From Blastococcus sp. TF02A-35 (GTDB lineage Bacteria > Actinomycetota > Actinomycetes > Mycobacteriales > Geodermatophilaceae), in assembly GCF_004571075.1 (NCBI RefSeq), contig NZ_SPQP01000032.1, positions 1 through 44,477 of the forward strand: a DNA stretch of 44,477 nucleotides, read 5' to 3'. The translations under genes were made by a program, and so were the position numbers. Numbering within the stretch: the first letter of the stretch is position 1; every line of letters starts with the position of its first letter. Positions 29,392 to 37,168 of the stretch are shown piece by piece. Below the pieces are notes generated by a model. That model saw only the letters and a list, made by a program, of their open reading frames with translations, did not search any database and had not been told where the DNA came from.

Positions 29392-30840
29392 TCAGCAGCG
29401 CATCGGGTCCGGTGGTGCGGTCTCGTCGAGCCACGGTGGGTCGGGCTCGGCGTCGAAGCACCAGCCGGGCGGGACGGTCGTGCGCGAGACCCCCGACGGG
29501 GTCCGGACGATGAGCCGGCCGTCGTCGAGGAGCTCGAAGTGCCAGCCGCTGGCGAAGGTCTTGATGCGGTGGTGCCGGCGGCAGAGGCAGCACAGGTTCT
29601 CGCAGGTCGTGGCTCCACCGTCGGCGTGCGAGACCACGTGGTCGAGGTCGAGGCGGCCGGGTCGGCGGCGGCAGCCGGGCATCCGGCAGTGCCTGTCCCG
29701 CACCTCCACGAAGCGCCGCTGCTCGGCCGCCGGTCGGTAGCCCGGTGCGGTGCGCGGCGCCCGCAGGCCCGGACCGCGGCAACCGTCGCGGCCGCCGGCG
29801 CCCCGCTCCAGCTCGCGGGGCGAGGCCAGGGCGACGAGGCCCGCGGACGGGTCGCCGATCGCGAGGTGCACCGAGCCTCCGGCAGGGGCGGCGTCGACGC
29901 CGAGCATGCCCAGTCGCTGGAGCAGCTCGCGGCACTCGGCGGCGGTGACCACCTCACCGGCGATCTCGGCGGCGGGCTGCGGCCGGCCGGAGGGGTGGCG
30001 CAGGGAGGACAGCGGCACGTGGACGACGAGCTTGGCGGTGACCGACGGCCGGGAGGTGTCCCACGGCCGGAGGATGAGGTCGGCGGCGACGGCGGCGCGG
30101 ATGACGCCGATGGGCCGGGTGTCGCCATCGGCCCGCAGCATCTGCGCGTACTGGTCGATGGCGTCGACGCAGGCGGCGGACTGGGCGACCGGCAGGTCGA
30201 TGACCACCTGACCGAGCCCGTCGCCGGTCGGGCGGTGGGTGACGTTGGCGTGCCGAGCAGCTTCCTCGCGCCGCTTGTCGAGCGCCTCGGCGTCCAGCTT
30301 GGCGATCAGGCGGCGCACCCGCTGGCGCAGGAGCGGGACGGTGAGCGTCTCGGCCGCGGGCAGGACCTGCTGCTCGATCCGGTCGACCACCGTCTGGCGC
30401 ACCGGGGCCAGCAGGTCGACGAGGGCGCGCATCTTCCGCACGTCGAGCCGGCCCTCGTACAGGGCGTGCCAGGTGCCGCGCAGCTTCGTCGTCAGCAGGA
30501 TCGACTCGAGGGCGAGCGTCTCGGCCTCGGCTTCCGAGCAGTTGCGGATCATGGCCAGCTCGGGCACGAAGGTCTCGGAGACCTCGGCAAGGGCCTGGTG
30601 CCGGCGCAGCCGGGAGTCGTGGCCGGGGCCGCCGCGGTGACCGAACTCGGCGTCGCGCTGGATGTGCCGGCGGCGGGCGAGGGCGGCGACCGCGCCGGCC
30701 AGCTCGGCGGCGTAGCGAGCGGCGCGAGCATCGGCTGCCCAGATGTCGGCGACCAGCTCGAAGTCGCCGAGGGACGGCGCCAGGTCCTCGCGCGTGGCGA
30801 GCAGCAGCTCGCCCTCGCTCGGAAGCTCACTGACGTCCAT
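29392..30840 (-). CDS. DUF222/HNH endonuclease domain protein (13E12-like)
   Basis: This 482-residue protein belongs to the multi-copy actinobacterial DUF222 plus HNH family (13E12 repeat proteins of mycobacteria). The N-terminal DUF222 region covers about 1-340. The C-terminal HNH site has CRMPGC, LDLDHVVSHADGG, a conserved Asn in CENLCCLCRRHH and paired cysteines for zinc. Their biological role is not established, and mobility has been suggested. It lies 38 bases downstream of the cassette array on the same strand, but has its own leaderless promoter hexamer TATCCT. Confidence 0.88.
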   Translation of the reverse strand: MDVSELPSEGELLLATREDLAPSLGDFELVADIWAADARAARYAAELAGAVAALARRRHIQRDAEFGHRGGPGHDSRLRRHQALAEVSETFVPELAMIRNCSEAEAETLALESILLTTKLRGTWHALYEGRLDVRKMRALVDLLAPVRQTVVDRIEQQVLPAAETLTVPLLRQRVRRLIAKLDAEALDKRREEAARHANVTHRPTGDGLGQVVIDLPVAQSAACVDAIDQYAQMLRADGDTRPIGVIRAAVAADLILRPWDTSRPSVTAKLVVHVPLSSLRHPSGRPQPAAEIAGEVVTAAECRELLQRLGMLGVDAAPAGGSVHLAIGDPSAGLVALASPRELERGAGGRDGCRGPGLRAPRTAPGYRPAAEQRRFVEVRDRHCRMPGCRRRPGRLDLDHVVSHADGGATTCENLCCLCRRHHRIKTFASGWHFELLDDGRLIVRTPSGVSRTTVPPGWCFDAEPDPPWLDETAPPDPMRC

Positions 30841-30846
30841 AACCGC

Positions 30847-30852
30847 AGGATA
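30847..30852 (-). promoter_or_regulatory. Leaderless -10 element of the DUF222/HNH gene
   Basis: TATCCT on the minus strand ends 6 bases before the ATG at 30840, without a ribosome site. Confidence 0.55.
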
Positions 30853-30878
30853 GAGGCCAGGTACGACAGTTTTCCGCG

Positions 30879-31760
30879 TCAGTCGTAAGGGTTCGTGAGG
30901 ACCGATCGGGCCTGGAGGACGTCGAAGGTGACCGGTGGTCCGTCGGTGGTGGTGGTGCCGGGGACGTCGGCGGGGGCGCTGCCGTTGACGGTGAAGGTGG
31001 CGCTCCAGGTGACGGTCAGGTGCGCGGTGTAGGTGCCGGACCGGTAGTCGTGCTCGATGGTCTGGTTCGGGTAGGGCTGGCCGGGGTGGGTGGTGACGAT
31101 CTGGCCGCTCGGGTCGCCGGTGTGCCAGGTGAACTGTTCGGCGGTGGCCTGGATGACGACGGTGAAGCCGCGGATGTCGACCGTGAAGGTCTGGGTGGTG
31201 GGGGAGTCGGTGTAGAAGATCACCGGCAGTCCGGCCAGGCCGTTGCCCGGGGGCTGGTGCTGGGTCGTGAGGGTCGGTAGTGGCAGCCGCTGGAAGTAGC
31301 TGAACACCTCGTCGCCGGAAGGAGGCGGGTTCAGGGGTGTGATGTCGATGCAGCCCTGGCGTACGTCCTCCCAGGTACCAACGGGTGTCCCCGGCGCGAG
31401 ACCCGGCACGACCTCGACGACTGCGGTTCCGTCCGCTCGAACGACGGGACGTTGTTGCACCACCAGGTATTGAATGACTCGACCGGGTTGCTGAGGGCAT
31501 TGGCGGAAATCCATCGACGAGCACGCTCCTTCCCGCTCGTCCGACAGGACGCATAGGTGCCGCAGGCGCCAGATGTAGTCCACGGCGTCGCTGGGTTGCT
31601 GCGCCACCAGTCCGGTCACGCCGACACCTGAGTAGCCGACTGATGCGGAGCCATCGCTCAGGTTGGTGTCAGGGCAACGGTCGTACCCGCATGCGGAGGC
31701 CGCGCTCGGGACAACCAGCAAGAAGCCGACCAACGCAAGGACCACACCGATGCGGTTCAT
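30879..31760 (-). CDS. Secreted PKD-like protein, copy A
   Basis: This 293-residue protein has an N-terminal signal peptide (about 1-23, ending SAASA). A diverged N-terminal domain follows (about 24-150), with six cysteines in the pattern ACGYDRCP, HLCV, GACS, FRQCP and QGCI. The conserved C-terminal region (about 150-293) contains FTWHTGD, IEHDYRSGTYTAHLTVTW and resembles a PKD/immunoglobulin-like beta sandwich. The ATG overlaps the lipoprotein stop by four bases, so the two are made together and are expected to meet outside the membrane. No catalytic motif is visible. It differs from copies B and C by only a few residues in the C-terminal region. Confidence 0.85.
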   Translation of the reverse strand: MNRIGVVLALVGFLLVVPSAASACGYDRCPDTNLSDGSASVGYSGVGVTGLVAQQPSDAVDYIWRLRHLCVLSDEREGACSSMDFRQCPQQPGRVIQYLVVQQRPVVRADGTAVVEVVPGLAPGTPVGTWEDVRQGCIDITPLNPPPSGDEVFSYFQRLPLPTLTTQHQPPGNGLAGLPVIFYTDSPTTQTFTVDIRGFTVVIQATAEQFTWHTGDPSGQIVTTHPGQPYPNQTIEHDYRSGTYTAHLTVTWSATFTVNGSAPADVPGTTTTDGPPVTFDVLQARSVLTNPYD

Positions 31761-32332
31761 CCGAGATCGAAGCTCTCGACCAACCAAGACCGCTCGTTGT
31801 CGGACCACCGCAGGGAGATGCCTGAACTGAGTCCCGTGGCGGACGGTTGACCTGCATCGATTGGCGCGCCGGACGAGTCGAGGCGCTGCACGGCCGCCTG
31901 ACTGGCAAGAAAGCTAATGGTCACTTCGCTGTCGGCGAGTGTCGGCTTCGCCGCGTCGTCGATGCTAACGGCGCCGCCCTGGTAGCGAGTGCCCGCAGCG
32001 GCGGCTTCGTCGTAGTTCTGAGCAATCCGTTGGCAGTTCTGGCACTCGGGACCAAGGTCCCGCAGCGGGGCGCCATCGGGAATCGAACGCTGACGGTTGA
32101 TGAGGTCGATCCAGTACTTCAGAAAGGCTTCGGCGCCGGCGGCGTCCTTGGTGCGGGCCTCGTCGGGCACCGGGAACTCGGCCGGGCCGACTGGCGGGAG
32201 CGACTCGGTGGTCTCCGGCGCGGCGGTCGGCAGGGTGTCGTTGGCTTCCTGCTTCTCCGAGCACCCGCCCAACACCAGCGCCGCAAGGGCAGCAGCGGTC
32301 AGGGTGCGACGCAGTCCACGAAGATCACGCAC
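31757..32332 (-). CDS. Lipoprotein, copy A (DUF6318-like)
   Basis: This 191-residue lipoprotein starts at GTG 32332. It has a twin-Arg-containing basic N-terminus, a hydrophobic stretch and the lipobox LGGC with the modified Cys at residue 24. A Thr/Pro-rich linker (30-57) leads to a compact domain with DAAGAEAFLKYWIDL (63-77), a CxxC motif (ECQNC) and a C-terminal LRWSDNERSWLV. It resembles actinobacterial lipoproteins that I recall as DUF6318; the exact number is from memory. The first 80 residues are almost identical to copy C; the remainder is distinct. Confidence 0.85.
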   Translation of the reverse strand: MRDLRGLRRTLTAAALAALVLGGCSEKQEANDTLPTAAPETTESLPPVGPAEFPVPDEARTKDAAGAEAFLKYWIDLINRQRSIPDGAPLRDLGPECQNCQRIAQNYDEAAAAGTRYQGGAVSIDDAAKPTLADSEVTISFLASQAAVQRLDSSGAPIDAGQPSATGLSSGISLRWSDNERSWLVESFDLG

Positions 32333-32338
32333 CGCCGC

Positions 32339-32344
32339 AGACTA
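32339..32344 (-). promoter_or_regulatory. Leaderless -10 element of cassette A
   Basis: TAGTCT on the minus strand ends 6 bases before GTG 32332. The same element is found before cassettes B and C. Confidence 0.6.
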
Positions 32345-32421
32345 CGCAGGACCGGACGTCGTCGGTTCCGTATCTGTGGACAGCGCTCCGCCGCGGCGAT
32401 GGTCTGTCCTCGACGTCCGCG

Positions 32422-33336
32422 TCAGTCGTGAGGGTTGGTGAGGACCGATCGGGCCTGGAGGACGTCGAAGGTGACCGGTGGTCCGTCGGTGGTGGTGGTT
32501 CCGGGGACGTCGGCGGGGGCGCTGCCGTTGACGGTGAAGGTGGCGCCCCAGGTGACGGTCAGGTGCGCGGTGTAGGTGCCGGACCGGTAGTCGTGCTCGA
32601 TGGTCTGGTTCGGGTAGGGCTGACCGGGGTGGGTGGTGACGATCTGGCCGGTCGGGTCGCCGGTGTGCCAGGTGAACTGCTCGGCGGTGGCCTGGATGAC
32701 GACGCTGAAGCCGCGGATGTCGACCGTGAACGTCTGGGTGGTGGGGGAGTCGGTGTAGAAGATCACCGGCAGCCCGGCCAGGCCGTTGCCCGGTGGCTGG
32801 TGCTGGGTCGTGAGGGTCGGCAGCGGGAGTTGCTGAAAGTAGCTGAACACTTCCTCCGGCGAGGGCGGCGGATTCAGTGCCGTGACGTCCACGCATCCGC
32901 GGTCGAGGAAATCCCACCCACCTAGCGGAGTCCCAGGCGGGGTTCCGGGCAGGACTGGTATCCCGTCAATCGTTGTAGGGCGATTCGGAAGCACCAGATT
33001 CTGTCTCTCGAGCACCAAGTCCTGAATAACTCGTCCGGGCGCGGTTGGGCAGCTGCGGAAGTCGCTGGCTCGGCATGCGCCGTTGTCGCGGTCGTCGACG
33101 ACGCATGGGTGTGACAGTTGGTAACGGTAGGGAGGCTCGGGCGGGGCGGCATTGTTGGCGACCCACTGATGGCCCGCGCCGCCTTCGACGTTCGCTGCGT
33201 AGAGGGAACCCGGGCTGAAGCCGACATTGGGGCAGAGCAGCAGCCCACAGCGCTGGTCAGCGGACGCCTGGGATGGAAGGACGAGCGCAAGCACAGCGAC
33301 GCCGAAGAGCATGCAAGCCCACGCGCCTCTTCTCAT
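32422..33336 (-). CDS. Secreted PKD-like protein, copy B
   Basis: This 304-residue protein has a signal peptide ending PSQASA (about residue 26) and the six-cysteine N-terminal domain, here strongly diverged (RCGLLLCP, HPCV, GACR, FRSCP, RGCV). The C-terminal PKD-like part, from about FSYFQQLPLPTL to the end, is nearly identical to copies A and C. The N-terminal domain of copy B is the most different of the three and shares little beyond the cysteines and a GRVIQDLV stretch. The ATG overlaps the stop of its lipoprotein by ATGA. Confidence 0.85.
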   Translation of the reverse strand: MRRGAWACMLFGVAVLALVLPSQASADQRCGLLLCPNVGFSPGSLYAANVEGGAGHQWVANNAAPPEPPYRYQLSHPCVVDDRDNGACRASDFRSCPTAPGRVIQDLVLERQNLVLPNRPTTIDGIPVLPGTPPGTPLGGWDFLDRGCVDVTALNPPPSPEEVFSYFQQLPLPTLTTQHQPPGNGLAGLPVIFYTDSPTTQTFTVDIRGFSVVIQATAEQFTWHTGDPTGQIVTTHPGQPYPNQTIEHDYRSGTYTAHLTVTWGATFTVNGSAPADVPGTTTTDGPPVTFDVLQARSVLTNPHD

Positions 33337-33917
33337 CCGAAGGCCATGTAGGTCATCCGCCAGGACTCAAGCTCCTGGTCCCAGTTGAGCGCGACGCTGC
33401 CCGGCAGACCGATGAAGGCGTCCGATCCTCCCTCAGCCAGGGGATTGCCCGACGCGTCACGAACGACCAATTGCGTCTGATCCAGCCGGATCGCCATGTC
33501 AGCCCGTGCATCGCGGATCAGCGGCGGTGCTGTTTCCGTGATGGTGATCTTCCCGCCGTCGTAGCGGTGACCGGCCTTGGCACTCAGTTCCGCGTTCTCA
33601 GCGATGCGATCGCAGTCATCGCAGTTCTCACTTAGCTGCCGAAGGGGAGCAGCATCCAGAGTCGTGGCCGTGTAGTTAAGCAGATCGAAGTAGTAGCGGA
33701 CGAATGCCTCAGCCCCAGACGCGTCCTGAGTGCGCGCAGCGTCGGGGAGTGGCAAATCCTCCGGACCGAGCTGCGGTCGTGAATCGGTTGTTTGAGGACT
33801 GGACGCGGCGGTCGGCAGGGCGTCGTTGGCTTCCTGCTTCTCCGAGCACCCGCTCAACAGCAGCGCCGCAAGGGCAGCAGCGGTCACGGTGCGACGCAGT
33901 CCACGAAGATCACGCAC
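33333..33917 (-). CDS. Lipoprotein, copy B (DUF6318-like)
   Basis: This 194-residue lipoprotein has the lipobox LSGC (Cys24) and the shared signal region up to about residue 37. After that, its linker and folded domain are strongly diverged (DASGAEAFVRYYFDLLN, the CxxC motif NCDDC, and C-terminal ALNWDQELESWRMTY). GTG start with leaderless hexamer TAGTCT at 33924-33929. It probably pairs with the secreted protein encoded immediately downstream. Confidence 0.85.
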   Translation of the reverse strand: MRDLRGLRRTVTAAALAALLLSGCSEKQEANDALPTAASSPQTTDSRPQLGPEDLPLPDAARTQDASGAEAFVRYYFDLLNYTATTLDAAPLRQLSENCDDCDRIAENAELSAKAGHRYDGGKITITETAPPLIRDARADMAIRLDQTQLVVRDASGNPLAEGGSDAFIGLPGSVALNWDQELESWRMTYMAFG

Positions 33918-33923
33918 CGCCGC

Positions 33924-33929
33924 AGACTA
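33924..33929 (-). promoter_or_regulatory. Leaderless -10 element of cassette B
   Basis: TAGTCT on the minus strand ends 6 bases before GTG 33917, in the conserved 5' arm. Confidence 0.6.
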
Positions 33930-34005
33930 CGCAGGACCGGACGTCGTCAGTTCCGTAACTGTGGACAGCGCTCCGCCGCGGCGATGGTCTGTCCTCGACG
34001 TCCGG

Positions 34006-34923
34006 TCAGTCGTAGGGGTTGGTGAGGACCGATCGGGCCTGGAGGACGTCGAAGGTGACCGGTGGTCCGTCGGTGGTGGTGGTGCCGGGGACGTCGGCGG
34101 GGGCGCTGCCGTTCACGGTGAAGGTGGCGCCCCAGGTGACGGTCAGGTGCGCGGTGTAGGTGCCGGACCGGTAGTCGTGCTCGATGGTCTGGTTCGGGTA
34201 GGGCTGACCGGGGTGGGTGGTGACGATCTGGCCGGTCGGGTCGCCGGTGTGCCAGGTGAACTGCTCGGCGGTGGCCTGGATGACGACGCTGAAGCCGCGG
34301 ATGTCGACGGTGAAGGTCTGGGTGGTGGGGGAGTCGGTGTAGAAGATCACCGGTAGCCCGGCCAGGCCGTTGCCCGGTGGCTGGTGCTGGGTCGTGAGGG
34401 TCGGTAGTGGCAGCCGCTGGAAGTAGCTGAACACCTCGTCGCCGGAAGGGGGTGGGTTCAGGGGCGTGATGTCGATGCAGCCCTGGCGTACATCGACCCA
34501 GTCGCCTACCGGGTCACCCGGACCCAGCACACTTGGTACGTCGACTGGCGTTCCGTCGGCGTTTGGTGCGACCGTTCCGTCCTCGCGAACTATTCGGCGC
34601 TGCTGGACCACTAGATAGCGGATCACTCGCCCCGGTTCCTCCGGGCATGGACGAAAGTCCATGGGCGAACACGCGCCCTCACGCTCGTCGGACAGCACGC
34701 ACAGGTGCCGAAGCCGCCAGATGTAGTCGGCGATGCCCTCGGGGCTACCGGCGACGAGGTCAGCCACGCCGCGGCCCTCGAAGCCGACATCGATCGTTCC
34801 GTTGTCGACATTGGTGTTGCCGCAGTCGTCGAACGTGCAGGCCAGCGCAGGGGAAAGATCAGCCAGCATGGCTACGACCGTCAGCAGTAGGACGGTCAGA
34901 GTCCGAGCGACCTTACGGATCAT
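34006..34923 (-). CDS. Secreted PKD-like protein, copy C
   Basis: This 305-residue protein has a signal peptide (about 1-28, ending SPALA) and a cysteine-containing N-terminal domain (ACTFDDCG, HLCV, GACS, FRPCP, QGCI). The conserved PKD-like C-terminal part is about 145 residues. Its N-terminal domain is clearly related to copy A (both have DYIWRLRHLCVLSDEREGAC), with a 12-residue insertion around DGTVAPNADGTPV. It overlaps its lipoprotein gene by ATGA. The role is unknown; extracellular binding or adhesion is typical for PKD folds. Confidence 0.85.
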   Translation of the reverse strand: MIRKVARTLTVLLLTVVAMLADLSPALACTFDDCGNTNVDNGTIDVGFEGRGVADLVAGSPEGIADYIWRLRHLCVLSDEREGACSPMDFRPCPEEPGRVIRYLVVQQRRIVREDGTVAPNADGTPVDVPSVLGPGDPVGDWVDVRQGCIDITPLNPPPSGDEVFSYFQRLPLPTLTTQHQPPGNGLAGLPVIFYTDSPTTQTFTVDIRGFSVVIQATAEQFTWHTGDPTGQIVTTHPGQPYPNQTIEHDYRSGTYTAHLTVTWGATFTVNGSAPADVPGTTTTDGPPVTFDVLQARSVLTNPYD

Positions 34924-35495
34924 CCGAGCGTGAAGCTTTTCACGAGCCAGGACTTATCGGATTCGGACCAGTTCAAGGTGATGCCGGAGCTCAGCGCCGG
35001 GGCCGGGTCGGGCCGGGCCTCCAAGATCGCTCCATCCCGGTTCACTAGAGAGACGGGCTCTCTCCGAGCGACGAACGCGATCATCGCTTCGCCGTCCCCC
35101 ATCTGAGGCGCCACACTTTCGGTGATGGTCAATTCACCGCCCTCGTAGCGATTGCCGGCCGATGCCGCAGAGTCGTAGTTTCCAGCGATTCGTGCGCACT
35201 CTTGGCACCCGGGACCCAGGTCGGTGATGGCTTGGCCGGCAGGCACGGCGCGTTGCCGATTGAGCAGGTCGATCCAGTACTTCAGAAAGGCTTCGGCGCC
35301 GGCGGCGTCCTGGGTGCGGGCCTCGTCGGGCACCGGGAAGTCGGCCGGGCCGACTGGCGGGAGCGACTCGGTCGTCTCCGGCGCGGCGGTCGGCAGAGTG
35401 TCGTTGGCTTCCTGCTTCTCCGAGCACCCGCTCAACACCAGCGCCGCAAGGGCAGCAGCGGTCAGGGTGCGACGCAGTCCACGAAGATCACGCAC
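34920..35495 (-). CDS. Lipoprotein, copy C (DUF6318-like)
   Basis: This 191-residue lipoprotein is the first gene of the array. It has the lipobox LSGC (Cys24), a Thr/Pro linker and the same DAAGAEAFLKYWIDL block as copy A, then diverges (CxxC motif GCQEC, later LNWSESDKSWLV). Nothing suggests an enzyme. The GTG start has the leaderless hexamer TAGTCT. Conservation with copy A through the linker shows recent exchange or duplication. Confidence 0.85.
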   Translation of the reverse strand: MRDLRGLRRTLTAAALAALVLSGCSEKQEANDTLPTAAPETTESLPPVGPADFPVPDEARTQDAAGAEAFLKYWIDLLNRQRAVPAGQAITDLGPGCQECARIAGNYDSAASAGNRYEGGELTITESVAPQMGDGEAMIAFVARREPVSLVNRDGAILEARPDPAPALSSGITLNWSESDKSWLVKSFTLG

Positions 35496-35501
35496 CGCCG
35501 C

Positions 35502-35507
35502 AGACTA
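35502..35507 (-). promoter_or_regulatory. Leaderless -10 element of cassette C
   Basis: TAGTCT on the minus strand ends 6 bases before GTG 35495. Upstream identity with the other two spacers ends at about 35547, which marks the outer edge of the array. Confidence 0.6.
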
Positions 35508-35644
35508 CGCAGGACCGGACGTCGTCGGTTCCGTATCTGTGGACAGCGCGTCCTCCGCTCCCGGATCGGGTGAAGCGCCCTCGGACCGCAGGCGCAGAAT
35601 GCGGAACGGGCGACCGAACCGTGGCCGCCGGGACGAGGGAGCGC

Positions 35645-37168
35645 GTGGACGTGGCCGAGCAGGGACCGTTCGACACCAGCGGCATCGAGGTCGGCGCCGA
35701 CGGCATCAAGCGCTACACGGGCCTGACGGCGAACGTCGTCACGCTGCTGAAGGAGACCGTCGAGCGCCACGGCGACCGCACGGCCGTCGTCGAGCTGAAC
35801 GGCCCGACCGCCACATACGCCGAGCTCTGGGACCGCGCCCGCCGCGTCGCCGGCGGCCTCCGGGCCAGCGGCATCCAGGTCGGCGACCGCGTCGCCGTCA
35901 ACCTGCCGAACGGCCTGGACTGGGTGCTCGCCTACTGGGGCGCGCACCTCGCCGGCGCCGTCGTCGTCCCCATGAACACCCGGCTCTCCGGGCCCGAGGC
36001 CGCCTACATCCTCGAGGACTGCGCAGCCGCCTACGTCGTCAGCCCGGGGGAGCCGCTGCCCGACGGCGAGCCGGTCGACCTCCCGGACCCGAGCCGCAGC
36101 GACGTCGCCGCGCTCTTCTACACGAGCGGCACCACCGGCCGGCCCAAGGGCGCGATGGTCACCCACGACAACTTCGTGACGACGGTCGAGAGCGTCATCC
36201 GCTGTCGCGAGCTGCCTCGCCACCCCGACCAGGCCACGCTGGTCTCGGTGCCGCTGTTCCACGTCACCGGCTGCTGCTCGCAGTTCATGACGCAGGTCGC
36301 CGTCGGTGGGACGTCGGTGATCATGCCGCGCTTCGAGCCGGCCGCCTTCCTCGCCGCGATCCCCGAGCACCGGATCACCCTGGTCACCAGCGTGCCGACG
36401 ATCTACGAACTCGTCCTGCGCCACCCGTCGTTCCCGACGACGGACGTCAGCAGCGTCCGCACCCTCAGCTACGGCGGCGCCCCGATGGCGCCCGAGCTCG
36501 TGCACCGGCTCCTCGACGCCTTCCCGGAGGCTCGGCTCGGCAACGGCTTCGGCCTCTCGGAGACGACGGCGCTGGCCACCTTCCTCCCGCACGAGTACGC
36601 GGCCACGCACGCCGACGCGGTCGGTTTCCCGGCCCCGGTGGACGACGTCCGCCTGCACCGCCCCGACGCGGAGACCGGCGTGGGGGAGCTGCTGGTGCGC
36701 GGCCCGAACGTCGTCGCCGGCTACTGGGGCGCCCCGGAGAAGACGGCGGAGACGATCGTCGACGGCTGGCTGCACACCGGCGACCTCGCGACGATCACCG
36801 ACGGCATCGTGCGGATCGTCGACCGCGCCAAGGACATGATCAACCGCGGCGGCGAGAACGTGTACTCCGTCGAGGTGGAGAACGCGCTGGCCGCGCACCC
36901 GGACATCGTCGAGGTGGCGGTCGTCGGCGTCCCGGACCCGGTCATGGGGGAGAAGGTGGGCGCCGTCGTCCTCCCGCGGCCGGGTGCCGACGTCGACGGC
37001 CTCATCCCCTCGCTCTGCGACTTCGCCCGCGAGCGGCTCGCCGACTTCAAGACGCCGCAGTTCATCCGGCTGGTCGACGGGCCGCTCCCGCGCAACGCCG
37101 GCGGCAAGGTCCTGAAGACGGCGCTGCGCGAGGCGGACGGCTGGACCGAGGTGCCGCGGCTCCGCTAG
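35645..37168 (+). CDS. Acyl-CoA synthetase (class I adenylate-forming)
   Basis: This 507-residue enzyme activates a fatty or other carboxylic acid to its CoA ester through an acyl-AMP. It has YTSGTTGRPKGA, GFGLSETT, GELLVRGPNVVAGYW, WLHTGDLA, VDRAKDMINRGGENVYSVEVE and the C-terminal catalytic Lys in RNAGGKVLK. The GTG at 35645 has GAGGGA 4 bases upstream; GTG 35651 is the alternative. It precedes an F420-type oxidoreductase on the same strand. The acid is not known. Confidence 0.92.
   Translation: MDVAEQGPFDTSGIEVGADGIKRYTGLTANVVTLLKETVERHGDRTAVVELNGPTATYAELWDRARRVAGGLRASGIQVGDRVAVNLPNGLDWVLAYWGAHLAGAVVVPMNTRLSGPEAAYILEDCAAAYVVSPGEPLPDGEPVDLPDPSRSDVAALFYTSGTTGRPKGAMVTHDNFVTTVESVIRCRELPRHPDQATLVSVPLFHVTGCCSQFMTQVAVGGTSVIMPRFEPAAFLAAIPEHRITLVTSVPTIYELVLRHPSFPTTDVSSVRTLSYGGAPMAPELVHRLLDAFPEARLGNGFGLSETTALATFLPHEYAATHADAVGFPAPVDDVRLHRPDAETGVGELLVRGPNVVAGYWGAPEKTAETIVDGWLHTGDLATITDGIVRIVDRAKDMINRGGENVYSVEVENALAAHPDIVEVAVVGVPDPVMGEKVGAVVLPRPGADVDGLIPSLCDFARERLADFKTPQFIRLVDGPLPRNAGGKVLKTALREADGWTEVPRLR

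Follow-up and report, generated by a model that had tools for sequence, protein, structure and literature searches.

We analysed a stretch of 44,477 nucleotides of Blastococcus sp. TF02A-35 (contig NZ_SPQP01000032.1, hereafter the window), the minus strand of which carries three tandem two-gene cassettes at positions 30879–35495, in the order C (34006–35495), B (32422–33917) and A (30879–32332). Each cassette encodes a lipoprotein and a secreted protein with a PKD-like domain. Arms and centres of these cassettes are decoupled: the centre is a block with definable borders, arms resemble each other within a genome, and centre types recur across species and chromosomal sites. The cassettes probably form a modular two-protein envelope system in which the centre is exchanged between homologous arms. 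Exchange of the centre as one unit across the two genes appears to be usual, not strict, and is supported with exceptions. We tentatively read the pair as a module for exchangeable envelope recognition.

Conserved arms and replaced centres in the window

A preliminary description of this DNA had reported three cassettes with alike arms and diverged centres, and we recovered them as described by repeat search, open reading frames and alignment. The 300-nt end of the PKD gene recurs at 30878, 32421 and 34005 (97% identity to the reference), and the 5' end of the lipoprotein gene with its upstream region recurs at 32088, 33673 and 35251 (97% for C, and just 66% for B because B diverges earlier). 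Pairwise identity is 0.96–0.98 in the 5' arm, 0.51–0.60 in the centre and 0.97–0.98 in the 3' arm. Maximum-likelihood breakpoints for the pairs A/B and B/C fall near lipoprotein codon 38 and PKD-protein codons 161–173, those for A/C near codons 77 and 132–144, respectively. A two-breakpoint step model was better than a smooth quartic logistic with the same number of parameters by 9.2 log-likelihood units for A/B, 23.7 for A/C and 21.7 for B/C. A smooth decay of identity was therefore rejected, and the pattern of arms and steps held in every pair. The near-identical arms and the single contiguous block over the gene junction stood up to this analysis; boundaries shared by every pair did not, since the replaced block of B is longer than the block between A and C; it starts in the linker ahead of the NTF2 domain and ends at about the point where the PKD domain begins.

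By these breakpoints, the replaced centre of B (type 4) covers 32820–33802, i.e., lipoprotein codon ~38 to PKD codon ~172. The centre of A (type 6) covers 31365–32101 relative to C and reaches 31277–32217 relative to B, and the centre of C (type 7) covers 34492–35264 relative to A and reaches 34405–35380 relative to B. The conserved 3' arms, which carry the PKD domain, lie at 30879–31276 in A (A/B identity 0.97 over ~399 aligned nt to the stop) and, as delimited by breakpoints and synonymous divergence, at 32422–32819 in B and 34006–34404 in C. Repeat search and alignment place the 5' arm of A, with the B-to-A intergenic region, at 32218–32421. The 5' arm of B and the C-to-B intergenic region (33803–34005) include a hairpin-forming inverted repeat, upstream elements and the lipoprotein signal peptide. 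The 5' arm of C occupies 35381–35550, and upstream similarity stops near 35550. All these features are on the minus strand.

Synonymous divergence (dS) differs between arms and centres as had been anticipated: it is 0.09–0.10 in the PKD arm among A, B and C, and 1.2–2.0 in the centres. The low arm values point to a recent common history of the arms and not only to protein constraint. Over lipoprotein codons 1–37, the copies share 107, 109 and 107 of 111 bases in pairwise comparisons. The first lipoprotein segment of our distance, species and dS analyses reaches past the breakpoint of B; in this segment B has a dS of 0.47–0.54 to A and C, and A/C has 0.03. Plain tandem duplication, with slow arms, a fast saturated centre and no exchange, would account for conservation of the arms, which hold the lipobox and a structural domain, but it does not explain why their synonymous sites are near-identical within the genome. 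Collapsed or mis-joined repeats are another conceivable source of near-identical arms, in a source genome (G000) of 3.93 Mb in 87 contigs, and contigs do break inside arms in two relatives (G005 and G010). Yet each of the three arms has private differences, none of the six reading frames is interrupted, and the same mosaic appears in single-copy genomes, among them the one-contig assemblies G007, G009 and G021, making an assembly artefact hardly credible.

Arms and centres have different histories across Blastococcus

The comparison set comprised 32 cassettes from 23 Blastococcus genomes, one genome per species. Four cassettes (G005a, G005b, G010a and G010b) are cut by contig ends, and that of G008 leaves the frame near the PKD end and was trimmed there. 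An orphan lipoprotein of G022 and PKD fragments (G004 C14, a second piece in G008, the tails in G010) were kept outside the 32. Both proteins were found in all 23 genomes searched, and the PKD partner was directly downstream at 32 of the 33 lipoprotein matches. The exception is the G022 orphan (L067 6865–7452), which is of the type-4 kind (59% to G011), has no PKD partner and sits between two complete cassettes of other types.

Distances between cassettes were correlated within arms and within centres, and much less between them. The correlation was r 0.645 between the two arms and 0.675 between lipoprotein and PKD centres (0.716 after removing arms), and ranged from 0.09 to 0.34 between arms and centres. 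Restricting the set to a single cassette from each of the 23 genomes gave 0.62 for arms, 0.733 for centres and 0.15 to 0.38 between arms and centres. The highest arm-centre correlation is inflated because the lipoprotein-arm segment includes a stretch of centre. In a linkage map of distances in 28-residue windows, the outer blocks correlated with each other (r 0.37–0.72) and hardly with the centre (−0.03 to 0.24). The centre formed its own block across the gene junction, with r 0.69 between the windows that flank the hypervariable signal-peptide window. Linkage fell between LP28 and LP56 and between PK140 and PK168 (r 0.13 and 0.22), near predicted domain borders. The earlier suggestion of a replaceable centre between homologous arms is thus borne out by block-like distances, and also by the discordant trees given below.

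Arms tracked species distance, measured on the rpoB-gyrB region (r 0.37 and 0.41, p 0.0005 each), and centres did not (r 0.04 and 0.07, p 0.24 and 0.16). On the arm tree, all six same-genome sets of one arm family were clades, with supports from 100/100 in G000 to 95/82 in G010, the weakest. On the centre tree, eight of the nine named types grouped together; type 1 includes the long-branched G015, and the members of type 5 do not form a single clade when the two centres are combined. Approximately unbiased (AU) tests rejected all seven tested centre types as clades on the arms (largest p 0.0047) and all six same-genome sets on the centres (largest p 0.00016); the groups tested were named after the alignments had been seen, and types 8 and 9 were outside the test. 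Shared arms, replaced centres and discordant trees, by which we recognise cassette exchange, were thus all found. As expected if relatives carry the same arms with other centres, related genomes do not all share centres.

We rejected saturation as the cause of this conflict. Centres simulated on the arm tree at matched identity gave r 0.83–0.85, with a minimum of 0.72 in 300 draws, and the observed arm-centre values for this test were 0.28 and 0.13, far under that minimum. The duplication account predicts at least the simulated minimum, and, since the centres of G000 are moreover closer to those of other species than to each other (see below), we give it next to no weight. The sister pair G018/G019, which shares a centre type, shows nearly uniform dS from one cassette segment to the next (0.36, 0.51, 0.47 and 0.37), the pattern expected when nothing was exchanged.

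Centre types recur across species and chromosomal sites

The centres fell into 17 groups at an average centre distance of 0.42. The A centre is nearest to that of G002 (72/84%), B to G008 (69/73%) and C to G020 (69/75%); each centre of G000 is closer to that of another species than to its two neighbours. Among the ten closest species pairs, three share a centre type. Centres of the same type differ far less at non-synonymous than at synonymous sites (dN 0.04–0.31 in the 13 pairs listed, well under dS), and the variable parts stay homologous across types, with a mean identity of 36% and 44%.

Cassettes were found at site 1, beside the acyl-CoA ligase and/or DUF222 gene, in 16 genomes. A second chromosomal region holds seven cassettes and a third two. 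A fourth neighbourhood has a cassette of G005 and, in G004, just a PKD tail; this remnant (L066, C14:215461–215541) is a possible deletion footprint. G012a is located away from these four neighbourhoods. In G010, a 3.1-kb contig (C55) starts and ends in PKD sequence and has a further lipoprotein-like gene between the cassette pieces (L080 1630–2937), outside the synteny clusters. Some types were common to different sites. The second site carries type 1 in G017 and type 5 in G016; at the first site, type 1 occurs in G013, G022, G009 and G005, and type 5 in G022 and G010. Type 2, a loose type with 52–58% identity, occupies the first site in G007 and the fourth in G005. The lipoprotein centres of type 5 form a clade (99/91), and its PKD centres mix with those of type 1.

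These distributions can be read in another way. An ancestral array might have held most types, different lineages having lost different ones, with gene conversion keeping the arms alike in each genome; such ancient paralogues would need no transfer between species. Tandem arrays do occur at the same site in G000, G017, G022 and probably G010, and arms do cluster by genome. Centres of the same type from non-sister species are deeply diverged (dS ~0.9 to saturation in the pairs shown), and AU tests did not reject a species-like order in type 4 (p 0.18 and 0.52) and gave at most a marginal rejection in type 1 (p 0.033, 0.056 and 0.058). However, the presence of types 1, 2 and 5 at different sites speaks against such a history, under which many types would need to have survived in every ancestor though most genomes hold one copy. 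In addition, distances between same-type centres were not linked to species distance (r 0.27, p 0.17, 27 pairs), but neither were arm distances in the same 27 pairs (r 0.23, p 0.25). A further difficulty is a public protein, P0038, which joins the near-identical N-domain and arm of two different proteins. Overall, we consider old paralogues with concerted evolution of the arms a rather unlikely explanation. The trees within types decide neither way between transfer between species and sorting from old arrays. We favour exchange of centres because types are shared across sites and because of the P0038 mosaic, the sole clean recent case, which is metagenomic.

The gene pair beyond Blastococcus

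The PKD protein was found in 102 of 112 genomes of the family, in 11 of its 12 genera. We fetched 40 of the matched regions outside Blastococcus, and all 40 had a lipoprotein match, one of them partial. The region with the partial match (L158, in G023, of another genus) has an open PKD gene; the lipoprotein next to it looks degraded at the N-terminus, and the centre is of the type-2 kind by eye. This region was left out of the resulting set of 71 cassettes. In this set, the nearest neighbour from a foreign genome was within the same genus for the arms of 64 cassettes and for the centres of 51, and centre and arm had the same nearest neighbour in nine.

More widely, a sample of 148 genomes of the class yielded DUF6318, the family of the lipoprotein, in 28, the genome of the window among them. 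DUF6318 loci were fetched from 12 places, one being the window's own, and each of the 11 from other families is followed, on the same strand, by a gene for a PKD homologue. Of 487 public homologues of the PKD protein, 120 were listed; we compared 101 of these and the protein of cassette C, and then repeated the comparison with the 99 proteins left after removing the two of the window. Among these 99, centre and arm distances were correlated at r 0.13. In 16 public pairs with arms at least 97% alike, centres were 35–92% alike (median 58%) among the matches listed. P0038 combines an N-domain near-identical to that of P0086 with a PKD arm near-identical to that of P0041; its contig is short and metagenomic, and could be a chimera.

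Protein families, folds and a possible toxin function

The lipoproteins of B (33333–33917, 194 amino acids) and A (31757–32332, 191 amino acids) match the DUF6318 profile (PF19843, gathering score 23.8 bits) with 42.5 bits (E 1.1e-10) and 28.8 bits (E 1.8e-6). That of C (34920–35495, 191 amino acids, lipobox LSGC) scores 19.3 bits (E 0.0014), below the gathering score, so membership by profile extends to two of the three copies; the C lipoprotein is a close relative of that of A (67% identity). The Pfam entry gives no function for the family. The AlphaFold2 (AF2) model of the B lipoprotein (predicted local distance difference test score, pLDDT, 88) has an NTF2-like alpha+beta cone fold at residues 63–194, which places it in the NTF2-like superfamily.

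The PKD proteins are encoded at 34006–34923 (C, 305 amino acids), 32422–33336 (B, an open reading frame of 304 amino acids) and 30879–31760 (A, 293 amino acids if translation starts at the ATG overlapping the stop codon of the lipoprotein gene), on the minus strand like the lipoproteins. The AF2 model of the C protein (pLDDT 86) ends in a PKD-like beta-sandwich at residues ~166–297. The Pfam match to PKD_4 is under the cut-off (E 0.29–0.36, 11.4–11.6 bits for a cut-off of 27), and we use the label PKD because of the predicted fold, not the sequence score. The N-domain was hardly covered in a structure comparison of the whole model, which does not show a new fold.

The lipoprotein genes of all three cassettes have a GTG start and a lipobox of GGC or SGC. 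In each cassette, the ATG of the PKD gene shares 4 nt with the lipoprotein stop (ATGA in C), an overlap that suggests translational coupling. The PKD protein of A probably starts at this ATG (31760) and not at the upstream GTG (31808).

None of the cassette proteins matched a toxin domain above the cut-off in Pfam or NCBIfam, a non-match that is not proof. The six cassette proteins had no match to PADLOC defence profiles at E 0.1, by which we ruled out known defence families as the identity of the cassette. The PKD protein of C had no match in plasmid or phage sequence collections, and carriage by plasmids or phages was rejected on this ground. The pair might be a toxin-immunity system, the PKD protein being a secreted inhibitor, delivered by contact or diffusion, with a variable active N-domain and the lipoprotein the matching membrane-anchored immunity protein. 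Two co-inherited variable domains, small arrays and the analogy with SitA and TpsA systems would agree with this, and its best point is the orphan type-4-kind lipoprotein of G022. It is nevertheless quite improbable: no toxin or defence profile was matched above cut-off, the variable parts are homologous across types with no switch of fold, the gene pair is in all 23 Blastococcus genomes, and an open PKD gene stands beside a seemingly degraded lipoprotein in G023. We place recognition, or escape from antagonists, above toxin-immunity because the pair is universal in the genomes of the genus searched, its variable parts remain within a single family, and our searches turned up no toxin profile.

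Upstream elements and flanking genes

Two elements, CTGCGTAGTCT and TGTCCACAG, are each found upstream of the lipoprotein in 28 of the 32 Blastococcus cassettes; the second resembles an actinobacterial DnaA box. In the window, the conserved upstream elements are at 32342–32421, 33927–34005 and 35505–35550, and they were found at several chromosomal sites. They are possibly promoter elements. We found no consensus match to an intrinsic terminator or a sigma-70 promoter within 30700–35800.

A 12-bp inverted repeat, GACCGGACGTCG / CGACGTCCGGTC, lies between tandem cassettes (window 33905–34015) and folds strongly as RNA, with −51.5 kcal/mol (z −3.0). No comparable repeat was seen by eye in the cassette flanks of other genomes; we therefore dropped the hairpin as a recombination site and read it as a local junction. 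In antigenic variation by silent cassettes, of the pilE or vls type, one expression site is accompanied by incomplete silent cassettes. This was rejected here, since all three copies are complete, each with a start, a signal peptide and nearly the same 70 upstream bases, and since no fourth PKD copy was found in the genome at E 0.001.

The markers of site 1 in the window are a DUF222 protein gene (29392–30840, minus strand, PF02720 E 2.8e-7) and the gene of an AMP-binding enzyme resembling acyl-CoA ligases (35570–37168, plus strand, PF00501 E 3.1e-84), both supported by synteny. The DUF222 gene adjoins the cassettes at this main site in most genomes with a cassette there. We take its product to be of the 13E12 type, its relatives looking like 13E12 HNH-type proteins. 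A putative role of this gene in recombination at the cassettes is conceivable.

A model of exchange and its weak points

We propose that the lipoprotein, whose variable part is the NTF2-like domain, would be held at the membrane by its conserved signal peptide, lipobox and linker. The partner, whose start overlaps the lipoprotein stop, would be exported, with a variable N-domain and the PKD-like domain as a constant body. Homologous recombination in the arms would replace the block made of the NTF2 domain, the partner signal peptide and the partner N-domain. Such replacement would take place inside arrays, from one chromosomal site to another and probably also across lineages, and the arms would be homogenised within each genome. 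Tandem copies may supply one cell with several specificities. The two variable domains, for which contact is plausible, might dock with one another or bind a ligand together. An advantage of rare types, against phages or bacteriocins or in self-recognition, may maintain many old types.

A broader interpretation, which we hold tentatively, is that matched lipoprotein and partner pairs constitute a polymorphic recognition system of Actinomycetes. Contact domains would be exchanged together, trans-species types would serve in self/non-self recognition or in evasion of phages and bacteriocins, and arrays would widen the repertoire.

Several observations weigh against the exchange of a two-gene centre or its proposed role. 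The preliminary description had the centre moving as a unit. The correlation between lipoprotein and PKD centre distances agrees with this, but the PKD N-domains of types 1 and 5 intermix, the lipoprotein centres of these types do not, and the signal peptide of P0038 resembles neither that of P0086 nor that of P0041. In the 71 cassettes, lipoprotein and PKD centres have the same nearest neighbour in just 33, and the block pattern is weaker outside Blastococcus. Co-variation of the centres fits docking, yet adjacency on the DNA alone would give it without contact. The AU tests within types 1 and 4 (see above) and type 7 (p 0.25) do not establish lateral transfer of a type. The link between arms and species is partly due to copies from the same genome and is weaker with one copy per genome: for the first copy of arm family 1 (17 genomes), arm-species r was 0.19 (p 0.08) and 0.31 (p 0.006), and centre-species r was 0.02 and 0.16 (p 0.10). 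Third-position GC is 0.75 in centres and 0.85 and 0.93 in arms, and this low value inflates centre dS relative to arms and flanks (flank-gene dS 0.14–0.80), although the contrast between PKD arm and centre within G000 exceeds 10-fold despite the bias. Finally, most genomes carry a single cassette.

Comparison with known systems

The Blastococcus lipoprotein is a member of DUF6318; its partner and its exchange behaviour are newly described here. Literature searches for this gene pair itself returned nothing on point, only analogous systems, and within the library searched no paper used the name DUF6318, although the pair may have been described under another name or in papers elsewhere. The pair is widespread in one actinobacterial family and recurs in other Actinomycetes, and we found no function described for it. 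With its natural cognate and non-cognate combinations, it allows partner specificity to be tested directly, and the trans-species types suggest that strong selection acts on the envelope of these bacteria.

In the meningococcal TpsA/TpsC island, the 3' end of one secreted protein is exchanged from shorter donor cassettes; growth inhibition with immunity was demonstrated, and the exchange was proposed to gather new open reading frames for protection (PMC3848433). That island also has related cassettes near one gene, domain exchange via homology and small neighbouring open reading frames among the cassettes (PMC3848433). In Blastococcus, every copy in the window has two open genes, the block spans both, and the pair is not known to have toxin activity.

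The SitBAI units of Myxococcus have SitA C-termini that are toxin domains neutralised by SitI, and sit on prophage-like Mx-alpha repeats (PMC5562445). They resemble the Blastococcus cassettes in having three tandem divergent units, a variable lipoprotein C-terminus and a neighbour with a type I signal sequence (PMC5562445). The variable domain of the Blastococcus lipoprotein is instead one NTF2-like fold, and the PKD protein of C is without plasmid or phage match.

The myxobacterial TraA/TraB system shares with Blastococcus a polymorphic domain on a conserved body, an adjacent partner, many recognition types and suspected allele shuffling (PMC6372800). There, TraB does not set specificity and the variable domain of TraA is PA14-like (PMC6372800), whereas in Blastococcus the variation spans both partners; the likeness is by description only. 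Domain exchange between conserved arms is already known for single surface or toxin proteins. In Blastococcus, the exchanged block usually covers two partner proteins, from near one domain border to near another. The logic is thus familiar from TpsA/TpsC, SitA and TraA; the Blastococcus cassettes differ from these in that a single block as a rule takes in the variable portions of both partners.

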